Assembly (NCBI GenBank): GCA_937128505.1
Contig: CAKZMM010000144.1
Location: forward strand, 1-32,785
Origin: an uncultured Thermogutta sp.
Lineage (GTDB): Bacteria > Planctomycetota > Planctomycetia > Pirellulales > Thermoguttaceae
DNA length: 32,785 nt
Direction: 5' to 3'
Shown here piece after piece: positions 1,128 to 27,173 of this stretch. The position numbers and the translations under genes were made by a program. How positions within the stretch are numbered: position 1 is the first letter of the stretch; each line of letters opens with the position of its first letter. Below the pieces are notes generated by a model. The model saw only the letters and a program-made list of their open reading frames with translations. It was not told the origin of the DNA and did not search any database.

Positions 1128-3860
1128 ATGATGATGTTCGCCAACTCGAAACTCGAGAGGTCAAGAAACGATGGGAATGGGCAAAGCGTGTTGAAGTGGA
1201 TGATCATCGCCATCGTGGCGATTGCCGGTATGACCATCCCCACGCTGGCTTTCGCTCAGCAGGAGTCGGCCGGAGGTCAGGTGGCTTCGGGGGTTAGCTG
1301 GCGATTTGTGCCGTTTTGGCTGCTCAGTCTGGGGGCGTCTGCTGCCGCGCTTTGGTTTGCGTACCACTTTTTCCGTAGCATGCTCGAGTCGGATGAAGGC
1401 ACGGAAAAAATGCGGCAAATTGCCCAGGCCGTCCGCGAGGGAGCAGATGCCTACCTCTGGCAGCAGTATCGCGTGGTGGCCATGTTTTTCGTGGTCATTG
1501 TGGTCCTGCTGAGCATCGCCGCCTTCGTGCTGCACGTTCAAAGCTACTGGGTACCATTCGCCTTCTTGACCGGGGGATTCTTCTCCGGGCTGGCCGGCTG
1601 GTGCGGAATGAAGACGGCAACCCTGGCGAGCAGTCGCACCGCCTCGGGGGCCCAATTCTCTTTGAATCGGGCACTTCAGGTCGCTTTCCGCAGTGGTGCG
1701 GTGATGGGCCTGACGGTGGTGGGCCTGGGCCTATTGGATATCTGTCTTTGGTTTTTCATCCTTTATTGGCTGATTTCTTGGTTTGGCTTCGAAATGAGCC
1801 TGGTGGATATCACGGTCACGATGCTGTGCTTCGGAATGGGAGCAAGCACCCAGGCACTTTTCGCCCGGGTCGGCGGGGGAATCTTCACGAAGGCGGCCGA
1901 CGTCGGGGCTGACCTCGTGGGAAAGGTGGAGGCGGGAATTCCTGAAGATGACCCGCGCAATGCAGCCGTGATTGCCGACAATGTGGGCGATAACGTGGGC
2001 GACGTGGCGGGAATGGGCGCCGACCTATACGAATCCTATTGCGGATCCATCCTCGCTTCGGCGGCTTTGGGGGTGGCGGCTTTTGCCGGCGGCGAGATCC
2101 TCCCGCCCGAATTTCGCCACCCTGACATCATCCACCGTTTTCAATTGGCGGCCATCTTCCTGCCGCTAATCTTGGCCGCGGCGGGAATCGCTCTGTCCAT
2201 CTGGGGTGTTTACTTGGTTCGCACCGACGATGAGCAAGCTACCCAACGCACCCTGCTTAAGGCCCTACGGCGCGGCATTTACTTGGCCACCGGTGTCACG
2301 GCATTGGCGGCGATCGTTTTGACCTGGCTACTGCTGGGCAGCAGCTTCATGGGAGTGGCCATCAGCATCATTGTTGGTCTTTTGGCCGGTGTGATCATCG
2401 GTTACTGGACCGAATACTCCACCAGCGAAGAATATCAACCAACCCGAGAATTGGCCGGACAAGCCCTTACGGGACCGGCTACGCTTGTCATCGGCGGAAT
2501 CGCCGACGGAATGAAAAGCACTTGGGTGCCGGTGTTGACCGTGTGCTTCGCCATGCTTTTGGCGTTCGGCTTTGCTTGCAGCTGGCAGATTCAGGACCCC
2601 GAGTGGTTCGCGTTGGGATTGTACGGCGTGGGTATTGCCGCCGTGGGGATGCTCAGCACCTTGGGCATCACCCTGGCGACCGACGCTTATGGACCGATCG
2701 CCGACAATGCAGGCGGCAATGCCCAGATGGCAGGACTAGATCCGGAAGTCCGCCGCCGTACGGATGCTTTGGACGCGCTGGGAAACACCACCGCTGCCAC
2801 GGGCAAAGGCTTTGCCATCGGTTCGGCGGCCCTAACCGCTCTGGCCCTCCTGGCCGCATATGTTGAAGAGGTGCGTATGGGATTTGTCCGGTGGCAAGAG
2901 TCGGCTTGCCGGGCCGTCACCGAACCGGGCTTCTACAAACTGACCGATACCTTTCTTGCCCATGTCATCGACGGCCCCGGGGGGCGTCGGATCGAGGGAT
3001 ATCTGCTTTTCCGTGATCAGCTCAGCGACCTCCAGTTGGCCGAAACCCATGTCGAAGAGCTTCGTCAAAAGGCAGCATGGGCTCTTCCGCCCAATGCGAA
3101 GCGGGTTTTGTGGACGGATATCGACTTCAGCCGGGGCCCTGTGCCTATCCCGAAAGCCTGTTTCCTAGAGAGCAAAGACCGCTTCGGCCATACCGTGGTG
3201 CGTTTGCAGCCGGATAGTGCGGAGGTTGCCGCGCGGCTGGTATCGGTGCACCAAGCCACCATGCCGGATTTCATGCGTTACTATGTGGCCAACCTCATGA
3301 ACCCGGCCGTTTTGGTGGGAGCTTTCATCGGCGCTATGTCGGTATTTCTATTCTGCTCGCTGACGATGAAAGCCGTGGGCCGTGCGGCCTTCGGAATGGT
3401 CGAAGAAGTACGTCGGCAGTTCCGCGAAAAACCGGGGATCATGCAGGGTACGGATAGGCCCGACTATCGAACCCCCGTGGCGATCAGCACCAAAGCTGCC
3501 CAAAAGGAGATGATTCTACCGTCGGTGTTGGGTTTAGTAACCCCGCTGGCGGTAGGACTCGTCTTGGGTGTGGCAGGCGTAGTGGGGCTTTTAGCCGGCG
3601 CTCTGACCTGCGGTTTCTGCGTGGCCATCTTCATGGCGAATGCCGGCGGAACCTGGGATAATGCTAAAAAGCATATCGAAGGCGGTGCGCACGGCGGAAA
3701 AGGCACCGATGCCCACAAGGCTGCCGTGGTAGGAGATACGGTGGGCGATCCGTTCAAGGATACCAGCGGCCCCAGCTTGAACATTCTCATCAAGCTGATG
3801 AGTATGGTGAGTGTGGTAGCCGCGGGGTTGATCGTCCGTTACGCACTGAATTTGTTCTGA
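1128..3860 (+). CDS. hppA: Membrane-bound ion-pumping pyrophosphatase with periplasmic insertion
   Basis: Integral membrane pyrophosphatase that couples hydrolysis of PPi to H+ and/or Na+ export. Seen: the PPi-binding motif D258-x7-K266-x-E268, DNVGDNVGD, and the C-terminal [12 protein letters not shown] and [14 protein letters not shown] blocks. [10 protein letters not shown] (552-561) has Ala556 and Gly559, the pattern of the K+-dependent subfamily. Glu302 in the YES context is the position associated with Na+-pumping members, so a Na+ or mixed pump is plausible but inferred. At 910 residues it is about 200 longer than usual. A signal peptide (about 24-43) precedes membrane segment 1, fitting the N-out topology of the family, and about 140 residues (580-718) are inserted in the outer loop before the [11 protein letters not shown] helix. 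Three ATGs follow GGAGAGG (1121-1127); 1131 or 1134 have better spacing than 1128. Confidence 0.96.
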
Positions 3861-4464
3861 CCCACCACGGGAAACTTGTGGGTGGTGCGGCAAATACGAC
3901 GGCGGTCTGCCCAAAATTTGGATGACCGACGGCTGTCCCTCCAAAACTGGCGCTCCAAAAATTGGATGACTAGCCGTCAAAAATGATCCGTCAAAAATGA
4001 ATTGACGGCGTCGGCGGTGCCGGGGAAACCGCCTGCGGAATTGGTGGAATGAAAAGGCTGCGATTCGTCGGCAAAGTTCAGCCACCCGAATAAAGCGGTC
4101 GTGTAACTCCCCGCGATTGTTCGGGGGACTGAAGCACGTCGCATGGTGGAATGTACGAACCTCCCCGCTCGAGCGCACGGAGCTCCCCCATTTGGCGTGA
4201 ATGTTTTCCCAGAAAAAGCTCCGCCGGAACCGGAAGAGGTTTTCCGGAACAAGGCAAACAAAAATTCGACAATTCACCCTTTTGACCAATATTTTGGTGG
4301 AGCTGCTTTCCGCGGCTTTTGTGATCGAGCTGCTTTCTGCGGGTTTTCCTGCTAAGCACAGGTGTGTACCAGCACGGTAGAGACAGGGCAGAAAGCAGCG
4401 GGACCGACTCCATTCCAAATTTGGGAGTTTGTCGACCGGTAAAGAGAAGCTGTCAGTCAACGGC

Positions 4465-4521
4465 GATCGATGCGCTCGAAGTTCCGCTGCATCGATGTTC
4501 GACTTGCCGCTGGATCGATGC
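4465..4521. repeat. Three ATCGATG-centred direct repeats
   Basis: GATCGATGC at 4465-4473, CATCGATGT at 4490-4498 and GATCGATGC at 4513-4521. The intervening bases are also related: both spacers end in CCGCTG. The periods are 25 and 23 bases. The copies are degenerate and no flanking gene explains them. Confidence 0.5.
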
Positions 4522-4672
4522 TGAATTTGGTAAGGGGTTTACGATCGGGAGCCGGCCTCAAAGACCTGGGCTATAGAGCGCGTCTCGCTCACTGCTGACG
4601 CCGTGAATCGGGTTGCAGACGACTCCCAGTAATGCCTTTGCACTTCTCAGCACGCCGATCTGGGGAATCCGC

Positions 4673-4704
4673 TTGACAAGTCGCCGGCGTGCTGGTAGTA
4701 AGAT
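4673..4704 (+). promoter_or_regulatory. Candidate promoter of the 4.7-4.9 kb RNA
   Basis: A perfect -35 box TTGACA lies at 4673-4678. The -10 is weaker: TAGTAA (4696-4701) at 17-base spacing, or TAAGAT (4699-4704) at 20. A start near 4707-4711 would give an RNA of about 240 bases to the terminator at 4947. Confidence 0.35.
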
Positions 4705-4706
4705 AA

Positions 4707-4947
4707 AACACATCGTTTTCTTCAGGAGCAACGCTTGGGGAAAAGTGCAGCTTCTCAGAGTGTTTGTTTGTTCTAGAGACGGTATGGTTAGTGGCACGAA
4801 CACAAGAGTGAACAACGGGAGCATCATTGAGAAAAGAATCCCCTGAGTTACCCTCCCTGCCCTTGCTCGCTAGTCTTCTAGCGAGCACCACCTCCGCCGA
4901 CCGCTTGCGTAATCTTCCCCGCAGATTAGCAAGCGGTCGGTTTTTTT
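4707..4947 (+). ncRNA. Candidate structured non-coding RNA
   Basis: A roughly 240-base unit bounded by a TTGACA promoter and a strong intrinsic terminator, with no credible protein inside. Structure seen by eye: a 5' hairpin, AGGAGC and CGCTT (4724-4736) pairing with AAGTG and GCTTCT (4743-4755) across an AA/CA internal loop; possible long-range pairing CTCAG (4754-4758) with CTGAG (4843-4847); a perfect 10-bp stem TGCTCGCTAG/CTAGCGAGCA with a TCTT loop (4864-4887); then the terminator stem (4897-4940). It lacks the hallmark sequences of RNase P RNA, tmRNA and SRP RNA, and I could not match it to 6S RNA. The exact 5' end is uncertain. It could instead be the tail of a longer transcript. Confidence 0.4.
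4897..4947 (+). terminator. Strong intrinsic terminator
   Basis: CCGACCGCTTGC (4897-4908) pairs with GCAAGCGGTCGG (4929-4940), continued by TAATCT (4910-4915) with AGATTA (4923-4928) around a 7-base loop, with one bulged G at 4909. Seven T residues follow at 4941-4947. This is the clearest terminator in the window and points rightward, although no protein gene precedes it for about 1 kb. Confidence 0.85.
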
Positions 4948-4975
4948 GTTTTCTTACTGTTTCATTCTTTTTGGC

Positions 4976-5012
4976 GCTGTTGCATTTTTGACGCTGTTGA
5001 ATTTTTGATGCT
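4976..5012. repeat. 17-bp tandem repeat
   Basis: GCTGTTGMATTTTTGA occurs at 4976 and 4993, with a partial third copy from 5010. The exact period is 17 bases. It lies just after the terminator and has no coding context. Confidence 0.5.
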
Positions 5013-5729
5013 TTTGAGCGTATTCCCTGGCCATTCAAGGCCCAGCACAAAAGAAGCGATAAAGAACGTTGAAGGTTTGAGAATGGGTCCTGACCGAGCC
5101 GCAACGCAAAAGATAAAAAGATAAGAGGTACCAAACGCACAAGGTACGATGACAGACTGCCTCGCTCAAATAGACGACTATTTGCCTATTCCAATTACTC
5201 TTAATTACTCTTAACAACGCACTGGGCGTGGGTTTGGAAATCTTTTTTGTGGCCCAAACTTGCTACTGAAACTTGCGGCCCAAAGTTAGGAACTTAATGC
5301 AAGCCCATCCGGCCTCGAATTTGGTACGAACTTTTATGCAGCCACAAGAGCGTGGGTTACAAGATTGGGCTCCTTTTCGCGAAATTGCCGCCCTACCGCT
5401 TGATGAATCGATCAATTTTTGAGGCAAATGACAACAGATTCTGACGTGCCGAAACGAGCCTTACTGCGCATCCTCGTAAGAATTTATGGGAAGAACCCAT
5501 CGGAGGAACTTTTTCGGAGCAATTCATTCTGAGGAGCGATTTATCCGGCGAATCTCACCCTCTCTTGTCACCGAAGTTAGCATTAACCTTGCGGGCTTTT
5601 CGCAAACGAATAAAATTAAAGGTAGCCGCAGGATAAAAAAAGCTAATTGAAAGCTAATTGATTGCCTTGCGGCGCGAAAGAAAAACCATCCGCCTATTCA
5701 CTCAGTTGCAACACGAGGAGTGCTCAGTA

Positions 5730-6167
5730 GTGGCGCGACAGGTCGCGCGAAAGCAAGCTTCCGATTTGGCAGCATCCGACTCATCGCTTCATCGTGCCAT
5801 GCTCGCGGCTCAGGTCGCCGCGGATTGTCGGGCACAGGACATCGTAATCCTCGAAATGCGGGGCCTCAGCGATCTATTCGATTTTTTTGTGATTGCCTCC
5901 GGAGCCAGCCGCCGGCAACTGCATGCCATTAGCGAGGAAATCGACCGTGTGCTTTCGGAACAAACGGGAGCCCGGCGTTTGGGTATCGAAGGTTTTACGG
6001 AAAGCCGGTGGATTCTCCTGGATTACGGGGATGTGGTGGTTCACCTTTTCGACCCGGAACTCCGGGGCTACTACGCCTTGGAAGATCTATGGGGCCAGGC
6101 GAAAAGAATTCCCTTCACGCCGAAGGTATCCGTTGCCCAGAAACGGGTGAGTTCCCCGGAAAATTAA
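5730..6167 (+). CDS. rsfS: Ribosomal silencing factor RsfS
   Basis: Small DUF143/Iojap family protein that binds ribosomal protein uL14 on the 50S subunit and blocks subunit joining when nutrients are scarce. The family core is clear: GLSDLFDFFVIASGASRRQ followed by WILLDYGDVVVHLFDPE and YYALEDLWGQA. The frame opens upstream at a TTG (5658) without a ribosome binding site. I chose the GTG at 5730 because CGAGGAG ends nine bases before it, giving 145 residues, close to the usual 105-130 with a short N-terminal extension. Many bacteria place this gene beside nadD or proA; here neither neighbour is present, and argS follows after a 457-base gap. Confidence 0.92.
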   Translation: MARQVARKQASDLAASDSSLHRAMLAAQVAADCRAQDIVILEMRGLSDLFDFFVIASGASRRQLHAISEEIDRVLSEQTGARRLGIEGFTESRWILLDYGDVVVHLFDPELRGYYALEDLWGQAKRIPFTPKVSVAQKRVSSPEN

Positions 6168-6624: not shown

Positions 6625-8361
6625 ATGGGTGCACTTCGTGAATTAAAAAAGCGTTTTTCGGAGGCCTTGAGGGGGTTCGTGGATGAGCCAGAGACCTACC
6701 TGAACCAACTCCGCCGCAGTGGGGCGCCTCAATTTGGGGATTACCAGGCAAACCTCGCAATGCCGCTGGCAAAGCAGCTTCGGAAATCTCCCCAGGAGGT
6801 GGCTCGCACCTTATTGGACCGAGTAAAGCTTGACGATCTTTGTCAGTCGGTAAACGTCGCCGGTCCGGGCTTTATCAACTTGCGGCTCCATGACCGCTGG
6901 CTGGCCGAAGAGCTCGCACACGCCGTGGTCGATCCACGACTTGGCGTACCGCAGGTGGCCGAGCCGCGAACTTGTGTCGTCGATTATTCCGCCCCTAACA
7001 TCGCAAAGCCGATGCACGTCGGCCACATCCGCTCCACCGTGATCGGCGATTGCCTGTGCCGCATGCTGCGATTTGTGGGCCATCGGGTGATCAGCGACAA
7101 CCATATCGGCGATTGGGGCACGCAGTTCGGTATGCTGATCTACGGGTGGCGGCATTTTGCCGATCCGATCGCCTATCAACGAGATCCGCTGGCGGAACTA
7201 GGCCGAATTTATCGCCACGTCAATCAATTGGCCGAACAGGATCCTCAGGTCGCACAGAAAGTCTTGGAAGAAACCGCTCGGCTCCATGCCGGCGATCCGG
7301 AAAACGTCGCCCTTTGGCGGGAATTTGTGCCGCGTTGTCTGGCCGAACTCGATGCGCTCTACCGCCGTTTGGGCGTGCAATTCGACTATACGCTGGGGGA
7401 GAGCTTTTACCACGACCGTTTGCCCGATTTGGTAGACGAACTACTCCAGCGGGGAATTGCCCGCGAAAGCGAGGGGGCGATCTGCATTTTCCTGGACGGT
7501 TTCGAAGCTCCCATGATCATCCGAAAGAAAGACGGTGCATTCCTATACGCAACGACTGACTTGGCCACCCTGGTCTACCGTGTGAACACATGGCACCCCG
7601 ATTGTATTCTGTACGTGGTTGATCATCGGCAATCGCTGCATTTCCGCCAGCTTTTCACAGCGGCCAATCTGTTGGGGTATAAAGCCCTTCAGCTCGAGCA
7701 CGTAAGCTTCGGGACCATTCTGGGGGAGGACGGGCGGCCATTCCGCACCCGAGCGGGCGACACCGTTGCCCTGGAAGATCTTCTGGAGGAGGCGGTTCGC
7801 CGTGCCCGAGAAGTCGTCGACGCCAACGACGACGCCAAGCCGGACGGCCCTGAATTAAGCGAGGTCGATCGGGCTCGGGTAGCCGAGGTGGTGGGAATTG
7901 GGGCCCTAAAATACGCGGACCTGTCGCAGAATCGCACCAGCGACTACGTCTTCAGTTTCGACAAGATGCTGGCGATGACCGGAAACACAGGAACCTATAT
8001 GCAGTACGCATACGCCCGAGTACGCAGCATTTTCGCCAAGGCGGGTCTGAATGCCGACTCTTTGCGGCAGGAAGGAGCCGCGATCCTTCTCACCACGCCC
8101 GAGGAACGGGCACTGGCCCTAGAACTAACTCGATTCGACGAAGCCATCGAGCTTGCTCTTACCGATTGGCGTCCCAACCAATTGACGGCCTATCTCTTCG
8201 ATTTAGCCAACAAATACTCGGCCTTTTATGAGAACTGTCCGGTCCTGAAGGCCGAATCGCCGGCTCTGCGGCAAAGCCGCCTGCTTCTGTGCGATTTGAC
8301 GGCACGCACCATCCAAAAAGGCTTGGAGCTTCTGGGAATCGGTGTGGTCGAAAAAATGTAA
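6625..8361 (+). CDS. argS: Arginyl-tRNA synthetase
   Basis: Cytoplasmic class Ia synthetase that charges tRNA-Arg. At 578 residues it is full length for the bacterial family. An N-terminal tRNA-binding Add1-type domain covers about 1-90. The catalytic core carries SAPNIAKPMHVGHIRS, with the HIGH-type motif HVGH at 131-134, then GDWGTQFGML. The second signature is FRTRAGDTV (373-381); ArgRS enzymes characteristically lack a canonical KMSKS and have this type of loop. The C-terminal DALR anticodon-binding domain ends NKYSAFYENCPVL and LLGIGVVEKM. The ATG at 6625 follows AGGGAT closely; the family N-terminus fits this start. No obvious operon partner: the nearest upstream gene on this strand is rsfS. 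Confidence 0.98.
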   Translation: MGALRELKKRFSEALRGFVDEPETYLNQLRRSGAPQFGDYQANLAMPLAKQLRKSPQEVARTLLDRVKLDDLCQSVNVAGPGFINLRLHDRWLAEELAHAVVDPRLGVPQVAEPRTCVVDYSAPNIAKPMHVGHIRSTVIGDCLCRMLRFVGHRVISDNHIGDWGTQFGMLIYGWRHFADPIAYQRDPLAELGRIYRHVNQLAEQDPQVAQKVLEETARLHAGDPENVALWREFVPRCLAELDALYRRLGVQFDYTLGESFYHDRLPDLVDELLQRGIARESEGAICIFLDGFEAPMIIRKKDGAFLYATTDLATLVYRVNTWHPDCILYVVDHRQSLHFRQLFTAANLLGYKALQLEHVSFGTILGEDGRPFRTRAGDTVALEDLLEEAVRRAREVVDANDDAKPDGPELSEVDRARVAEVVGIGALKYADLSQNRTSDYVFSFDKMLAMTGNTGTYMQYAYARVRSIFAKAGLNADSLRQEGAAILLTTPEERALALELTRFDEAIELALTDWRPNQLTAYLFDLANKYSAFYENCPVLKAESPALRQSRLLLCDLTARTIQKGLELLGIGVVEKM

Positions 8362-25502: not shown

Positions 25503-25600
25503 AGGGAGTTCGCTAACTGCAAGGGGGAATTGGCTAACTACAAGACGGGGTTCGCTAATTACAAGAGGAGGTTGGCTAACTAGATAGGGGAAGCTAAGCA
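25503..25600. repeat. 21-bp tandem array (4.5 copies)
   Basis: Units centred on TTSGCTAAYTACAAG, each preceded by a G-rich GGGGRR stretch, start at 25509, 25530, 25551 and 25572 at a constant 21-base step; a decayed fifth copy (AAGCTAAGC) begins near 25591. The fixed step equals two helical turns. Copies differ by one to four bases. Confidence 0.72.
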
Positions 25601-25852
25601 GTCAGATGAATACTGCATAACGAAGAATGCTGCAAACGGGAAACGGCCTCTTGCTTCGGGCGGGAAAAAGAGATCGGAAAAAGAGATAAAACAACAGAAA
25701 CTACTGAAATTTATGACGGTTCCCGGTGAAAAACCCCCGAAAACGGCCCCCGATATCCGTCGGCAGGACCTGCCGAAGCGCACGCGAAAGATTCCGGGTT
25801 ATTCACCCTGAAGTAACCACCGCCCACCCTAAACAGCCGCGCGGCAGCCGAA

Positions 25853-25925
25853 TGGAGACGAGCGGGCTCGAACCGCCAACCCCCGGCTTGCAAAGCCGGT
25901 GCTCTCCCAATTGAGCTACGTCCCC
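25853..25925 (-). tRNA. tRNA-Ala(TGC)
   Basis: 73-base cloverleaf read on the minus strand. The acceptor stem GGGGACG pairs with CGTCTCC (one G-T pair). The D-arm is GTAGCTCAATTGGGAGAGC, the anticodon stem CCGGC/GCCGG has loop TTTGCAA with anticodon TGC, and the T-arm has GGTTCGAGCC. Discriminator A; CCA is not encoded. Confidence 0.97.
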
Positions 25926-27173
25926 AAGAATTACCGCCGTAATAACAACCGAACACCTCGTTGCAGTAATGCTTTCCGAATCACAAAATGTGTCTCAATG
26001 TAACGATTCGACCGTAACTCACTCTAAATAGTACGAACTTTAACAAGTCCGCAGGGTGTTAAACCCTGTCGCACATTAATCAATCTTGCACTATTGTCAG
26101 AAAAAAACTAAATTTATTTCCAGGCCGCAACACCAGATTACCTTCCAAAACCTTCAATCATCCCTCCACTAGCTATTTTCCTCAGCTTTTCCCAGCTCTG
26201 CTAGCCACTACGTGGTAGTTCACCGCCAAAACATCAGGAAAACGTTTCATTAATCTCATTAATCCCCGGCGGCAGCAATGCTAATCCCGCCGGTTACTGC
26301 TTGCCACCATCGCACAAACGGCAGCAATCGCCGTGTAGGCCGAGGCCGCGCGTTCTCCGGAGCTACCACTGGGAACTTCCGTCGCCCAGATTTTACCATC
26401 GCCCAGATTGTATTTTTAGACAACTACCGATCAAGGTGGGAAGTATCCTTCAATCCGCGACTGGCAACATGATGGGCCAAATCCTGCGGCAAATACCCAC
26501 AGAACAAAGTTCGTAAACGCCCATCCACTTACGCCGAAGCCCCCGGATCGGCCTTCGTTCCCATTTATTCCCCTAATCGGCACAAGTCTATTCTGCCATT
26601 CGGCACAAGACTTCGGGTGGGAGTCAATGCAAACCGATGGGGCAAAAAGCGCTCCCGTCATCCCGATGTGTTTTCCCGTTTTTCGCTTCCACTTTCCCGG
26701 GGTTTGCCGAAGGGGTCCAAAGCTGGTACCATTACCTAACTGTGTCGGCTTGCACCCTGTCCGGCGGGTATGGTTTACACCCTCCGAAGCTCGCAAGGCC
26801 AAGAACCATGAGGGATAGCCATCCCTTAACGTTTCGATAATATTGACTAATTTTTCAAACATTGAATGTTTTCTGAGTACTTCTGGGACGCACAATTTTC
26901 CACGCGACAAAACTATTTTTATGATCGTAGTAGTGCATAATTTTTGGCGAAGTTCCGTGCACAGATTTCGGGGGATGTACAGATTTTGAAAGAATATCAA
27001 GAGTTTCCGCGGATAGATTTTCGAGGGATTTCCTGGATTGGAGTCGCCCCTCGACAAACCACACCTTTGCAAGAATTAATTACGACACTCCATCGCCGGT
27101 GGGGCGATATCTTAAGGTAAACGGCTTGTTCCCTAACAGTTCGCGAGCTGAAAGATCGCGGGACTTTCCAATT

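Follow-up and report, generated by a model that had tools for sequence, protein, structure and literature searches.

The region between hppA and rsfS of an uncultured Thermogutta sp. harbours a non-coding element that is conserved, ends in a terminator and includes C-rich strands invariant in the three sequences compared; it is very probably a small RNA gene. The core opens with a C-rich strand, continues through a 10-bp hairpin to a C-rich linker and closes with an intrinsic terminator. The structured element that had been proposed here in an earlier note is genuine, and its boundaries differ from those of that first reading. Its conserved C-rich strands, on which the earlier note does not comment, are the main clue to function, and by analogy with known bacterial RNAs the element is most likely a C-rich trans-acting regulator.

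We refer to the whole stretch analysed, positions 1-32,785 of the forward strand of contig CAKZMM010000144.1 (assembly GCA_937128505.1), as the window. Its own genome (G000) was compared with two other genomes of the genus, G001 and G002. The following features are discussed below.

1128-3860, plus strand: hppA (PF03030)
4673-4701, plus strand: doubtful candidate promoter in the window species, TTGACA-17-TAGTAA; equalled by 19 of 200 shuffles, with no aligned counterpart in the relatives
4724-4755, plus strand: small 5' hairpin, private to the window genome and of doubtful role; z = -2.6 when folded alone, not aligned in the relatives
4838-4947, plus strand: conserved RNA core, making up roughly the last 110 nt of the predicted transcript; 79% and 75% identical to its counterparts in the relatives, z = -11.2, 127 bits with covariance model R1 (the model was built from three sequences, this one among them)
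4840-4845, plus strand: C-rich site 1, CCCCUG; invariant in 3/3 sequences
4849-4862, plus strand: C-rich site 2, UACCCUCCCUGCCC, proposed as the main strand for pairing; 14/14 letters invariant in the three sequences
4864-4887, plus strand: 10-bp hairpin with a UCUU loop; 9 bp kept in the relatives, in which the loop differs
4888-4898, plus strand: C-rich linker CCACCUCCGCC, containing CACCUCC as in the 16S tail (tails taken from G001 and G002); invariant in 3/3 sequences
4897-4947, plus strand: intrinsic terminator, a stem (4897-4940) followed by 7 U
4917-4923, plus strand: C-rich segment of the terminator loop, CCCCGCA; invariant in 3/3 sequences
5658-6167, plus strand: open reading frame of rsfS (PF02410), true start uncertain
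6625-8361, plus strand: arginyl-tRNA synthetase gene

Structure of the element

The predicted fold of the core is not equalled by any of 200 shuffled sequences. The same holds for the tetraloop hairpin at 4864-4887, which is, as the earlier note described it, a perfect 10-bp stem (z = -6.4; 0/200 shuffles equal). A base-paired 5' domain had also been proposed at 4724-4755. This hairpin does form a better structure than most shuffles when folded alone (3/200 as good), but the region 4710-4838 as a whole folds like random sequence (z = 0.06; 101/200 shuffles fold as well), and the hairpin falls outside all stretches that can be aligned with the relatives. Because neither this first stem nor the TTGACA box upstream of it is conserved, the 5' part of the original three-stem layout and of the proposed transcript ends is unsupported. 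The novel structured RNA survives these checks as a candidate, being found in 3/3 genomes of the genus and giving no match at the Rfam gathering score.

The terminator stem that precedes a 7-T tract at 4941 has a predicted energy of -31.7 kcal/mol and is indeed the most stable in the window, the runner-up reaching -25.6 kcal/mol; the ranking comprises 98 structure-plus-T-tract sites among 129 tracts of at least five T on both strands of the whole window. A generic scan of the window does not list the terminator at 4941. The G002 terminator is predicted to adopt a different fold, which is no better than that of its shuffles (z = -0.17).

Apart from the terminator, the stretch 4838-4947 contains a single hairpin, and the C-rich strands are located mostly between stems. 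Their mean unpaired probability is 0.72-0.87 in the core fold and 0.40-0.80 when longer forms or the relatives are folded. For site 2 the corresponding values are 0.84 in the core and 0.51-0.72 in longer forms and relatives, while the linker ranges from 0.40 to 0.73.

Conservation and covariation

A BLASTN search of 4660-4960 against 60 relatives, the own genome included, gives matches in three, G000, G001 and G002, and outside the own genome these matches span 4840-4947 only. Between G001 and G002, the sole alignable part of the intergenic DNA (about 560 and 640 bp upstream of the element, plus the sequence after it) is a stretch of 121 bp at 88% identity, comprising the element and about 10 nt upstream. 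Given that hppA of the window is 74-78% identical at the DNA level to its counterparts in G001 and G002, the element shows a degree of conservation close to that of a protein gene, within surroundings that cannot be aligned. In the three-way alignment the invariant letters are CCCCUG, UACCCUCCCUGCCC, the two 9-nt hairpin arms, CCACCUCCGCCGACC (4888-4902) and CCCCGCA; variation is seen in the loop of the hairpin and in the stem of the terminator.

Compensatory changes in the stems are seen in part. Three pairs of the terminator are changed on both sides and still paired, a result that 16/500 shuffles match. However, sliding the partners by three columns in either direction also yields two such pairs, the +3 slide scores 0.154 against 0.141 for the true pairing, and 8/17 terminator pairs are broken in G002. 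The hairpin is uninformative in this respect because it is invariant in all three sequences. With three sequences, covariation support for the element is thin.

Phylogenetic distribution

Covariance model R1 detects the element once in its own genome, together with one chance-level match (E 4.58), and in 3/119 genomes of the family. Over 396 genomes of the order it recovers the same three and two weak matches outside the genus (24.2 and 23.3 bits), which overlap other open reading frames with several pairs broken and were rejected. A two-part motif pattern returned 19 stretches from a named genome collection, which include the two known relatives. Scored with R1, none of the other 17, of five further family motif matches or of one viral match exceeds 15.7 bits, and these 23 loci were likewise discarded. 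The neighbouring gene rsfS is present in 105/119 family genomes; among 30 of these loci that were fetched, R1 detects the element only in the window and in G001, the G002 contig ending early. Searches over more than 40 genomes used stricter filters, with candidates scored in part, so that distant relatives may be missed. As far as the genomes searched indicate, the element appears confined to one genus of Thermoguttaceae.

Coding potential

Neither of the two plus-strand open reading frames tested has a Pfam match. Minus-strand frames overlap it in the window (183 aa) and in G001 (188 aa); the first has only a Pfam match below the cut-off (E 0.04) and the second none, and BLASTP aligns the two at 16/48 residues (E 0.010). 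Frames across the element are interrupted by single-base indels between species, and in G002 a stop codon at the U-tract interrupts the minus-strand frame. We reject a protein-coding reading on these grounds (no Pfam-supported frame, indels, the G002 stop), in agreement with the original view that the locus encodes no credible protein.

Proposed mechanism and candidate targets

We see a roughly even chance that the element encodes a free-standing C-rich sRNA that acts in trans by blocking Shine-Dalgarno sites, in the manner of RsaE/RoxS or NfeR1. Such anti-Shine-Dalgarno RNAs are treated here as a working category and not as a single family. The RNA would be transcribed from its own promoter (a sequence seen in the two relatives and uncertain in the window genome) and would finish in a U tail at a terminator of its own. 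Its stems would keep CCCCUG, UACCCUCCCUGCCC, CCACCUCCGCC and, in the terminator loop, CCCCGCA apart from one another. These strands would then anneal to mRNAs at their G-rich Shine-Dalgarno regions and exclude ribosomes, so that translation is lowered without Hfq. Because the computed target tests described below are negative or weak, we infer transcription, mRNA pairing and the repressive effect from the anatomy of the element and from analogy.

Shine-Dalgarno sites are in use in the window genome, where AGGAG stands before 25/208 starts compared with 4, 4 and 7 in control windows. A search for Hfq (PF17209) gives no match in 3/3 genomes of the genus; the same model matched in 5/14 control genomes. 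The CACCUCC of the linker also occurs within the tail GGATCACCTCCTTT at 16S-like 3' ends in G001 and G002, where the preceding letters are presumably those of 16S rRNA. In the own genome the sole exact GGATCACCTCCTTT (L111, G000:C113:7436-7449) is not preceded by the usual 16S letters, so that the 3' end of 16S rRNA may be absent from the G000 assembly or may differ. As a variant of the proposed mechanism that we consider improbable, the RNA could be a genus-specific mimic of the 16S tail, whose CACCUCC linker and other C-rich strands would broadly cover Shine-Dalgarno sites and slow initiation without Hfq. It would be encoded beside rsfS, the gene for the ribosome-silencing factor, and the two would perhaps act together.

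The target tests covered sampled start regions and patterns. For each of the four C-rich strands, pairing at 196 start regions was compared with pairing at internal regions, and 8, 13, 12 and 12 of 30 shuffles did as well or better. In raw counts, strong pairings of the linker are slightly more frequent at starts (19) than upstream (3) or inside (11). Complements of site 2, allowing a single mismatch, occur at 18, 21 and 25 places in the three genomes, compared with 15, 21 and 19 for the reversed control; 30 of these 64 places, a total that includes the element's own complement, were examined. The motif AGGGAGG precedes an ATG at 49 and 63 places in two genomes, compared with 43 and 75 places for the reversed control; a scripted count on the fetched places gave 49 and 64, with an open reading frame of at least 40 aa at 29 and 40 of them. 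Neither the site 2 complements nor the AGGGAGG-ATG places are clearly in excess over the reversed patterns.

Among individual genes, similar proteins stand behind AGGGAGG in both genomes for nusG (82% identity, Pfam), for a multicopy pseudopilin-like family and for one pair at 47% identity. In both genomes examined, G000 and G001, AGGGAGG lies before the nusG start (L181, L180, position 1516), which makes nusG a weak lead as a candidate target; chance or a conserved Shine-Dalgarno site could also give AGGGAGG. The NusG domain of these proteins begins only at residue 73 in G000 and residue 46 in G001. A flgE-like gene, named from a reading of the letters and first noticed in G002, has the lowest site 1+2 energy of the window genome under one start-calling method (0/196 lower). 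When orthologs were compared using starts that favour Shine-Dalgarno sites, 9/232, 70/235 and 14/253 regions had lower energies in G000, G001 and G002, respectively, and this candidate was dropped because it is inconsistent across species and fails in G001. CheW-like and sigma-factor-like proteins from the G001 list, also named from reading, were set aside as well, tblastn against the fetched stretches giving no close ortholog.

The absence of any signal beyond controls at start sites would also be expected if an independent sRNA used its C-rich strands for another purpose, namely to bind a protein, to sponge another RNA or to pair inside coding regions. The hairpin arms are invariant along with the C-rich strands, which fits protein recognition. 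However, C-rich strands facing Shine-Dalgarno sites have precedents in RsaE/RoxS and NfeR1, and the search for a partner protein, which covered Hfq alone, identified none. We regard such another purpose as a possible but tentative explanation.

Gene setting, promoter and transcript length

The element follows hppA in 3/3 genomes of the genus. It sits within the hppA-rsfS gap, about 1.8 kb long in the window, and in G001 it likewise lies between the two genes, on the same strand throughout. In G002 the contig ends soon past the terminator, and rsfS, preceded by about 195 nt, is found close to the end of a different contig, an arrangement that is compatible with the same neighbourhood.

The TTGACA box reported previously is present at 4673-4678, and the sequence around it makes a doubtful promoter. 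Its possible -10 partners are TAGTAA at a spacing of 17 and TAAGAT at a spacing of 20, neither of them good; the score of the better combination, TTGACA-17-TAGTAA, is reached by 19/200 shuffles, and the box is not conserved in the relatives. A generic promoter scan places no promoter within 4300-5300 of the window. The relatives contain the promoter-like pairs TTGACG-17-TATAAA (G001) and TTGACG-17-TATAAG (G002), each ending 37 nt before CCCCUG and differing in the letters of the spacer. For each of them 0/200 letter shuffles score as high, with score weights of our own that derive from the E. coli consensus. Generic scans of G001 and G002, which require a T at the end of the -10 box, omit these sites.

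If transcription started at the GTGGACG that follows the promoter-like pair, the RNA would be 143 or 144 nt long. The relatives thereby imply an RNA of about 143 nt instead of the roughly 240 bases that had been proposed. A transcript of about 240 bases in the window species is possible rather than established, because the TTGACA box lacks a good -10 element and shuffles equal its score.

The gene order bears on whether the element acts in cis and not in trans, either as a terminator-attenuator ahead of rsfS or as a 3' end processed from the hppA transcript. Co-orientation of hppA, the element and rsfS in the window and in G001, the strength of the terminator and the lack of a convincing promoter of its own in the window would all suit such a role. 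The element is, however, located about 0.6 to 1 kb past hppA and about 0.7 kb ahead of rsfS, a promoter-like pair stands just upstream of it in two relatives, and the folds examined contain no alternative antiterminator pairing. Taken together, we consider action in cis unlikely.

Comparison with known RNA families

In an Rfam scan with 4227 families (E up to 10 for the window stretch and up to 5 for the relatives), only two tRNAs of the window reach the gathering score and the element has no gathering match, 6S RNA included. Matches below threshold in the element and in the loci of the relatives were judged to be due to chance or driven by the terminator. No family of the RsaE/RoxS type appears among the matches at these E limits, in the window or the relatives, although Rfam presumably includes an RsaE model.

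Like the element, RsaE/RoxS of Staphylococcus and Bacillus have several conserved C-rich regions, and the element differs from them in giving no Rfam match to their family. Passages of one paper describe numbered C-rich regions of RsaE/RoxS as able to pair with Shine-Dalgarno sequences (PMC4409812). A second likeness is to the NfeR1/alpha-r14 sRNAs of rhizobia, in which, according to parts of two reports, unpaired anti-Shine-Dalgarno motifs are repeated along the RNA (PMC10746234, PMC3927594); C-rich strands likewise recur along the element. In NfeR1/alpha-r14, as these parts of the reports give it, an identical CCUCCUCCC is present in each of three hairpins, whereas the C-rich strands of the element differ from one another and lie mostly between stems. 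The string CCUCCUCCC is absent from 4838-4947.

Hrs13 (RF02631) resembles the element in that a terminator follows a hairpin, and the two terminators have similar stems. Its model scores 23.6 bits in the window and 19.3 bits in G001, compared with a gathering score of 52, and the agreement lies mainly in the terminator. A paper on candidate RNAs lists, in the part consulted, a Rhodopirellula-1 motif for Proteobacteria and Planctomycetes and gives no Rfam number for it there (PMC2864571).

6S RNA forms a long duplex with a central bubble. Its model RF00013 has no match in the own genome, an absence that proves little since the model matched in only 5/14 control genomes. That gap is what would leave room for the element as the missing 6S RNA of the lineage, an identity that is highly improbable given that its predicted folds consist of separate hairpins with no long duplex and central bubble and that it is restricted, as far as searched, to one genus. 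Since the element falls short of every family tested, we assign it to none.

Recorded small RNAs are few in this group of bacteria: a table in a review lists 8 distinct sRNAs for the Planctomycetes-Verrucomicrobia-Chlamydiae group, compared with 345 for Proteobacteria (PMC9029176). In the open-licence literature, the titles and abstract openings among the matches listed mention no trans-acting C-rich sRNA in planctomycetes. If expression and targets of the element were shown, C-rich blocking of Shine-Dalgarno sites would extend to a lineage in which no Hfq is detected (3/3 genomes).

Two tandem repeats were observed in the window. A 17-bp unit, TTTTTGACGCTGTTGAA, is present in 2.9 tandem copies at 4968-5017, just 3' of the terminator, and a 21-bp unit in 3.8 copies at 25503-25582, near a tRNA-Ala gene on the minus strand (25852-25926).
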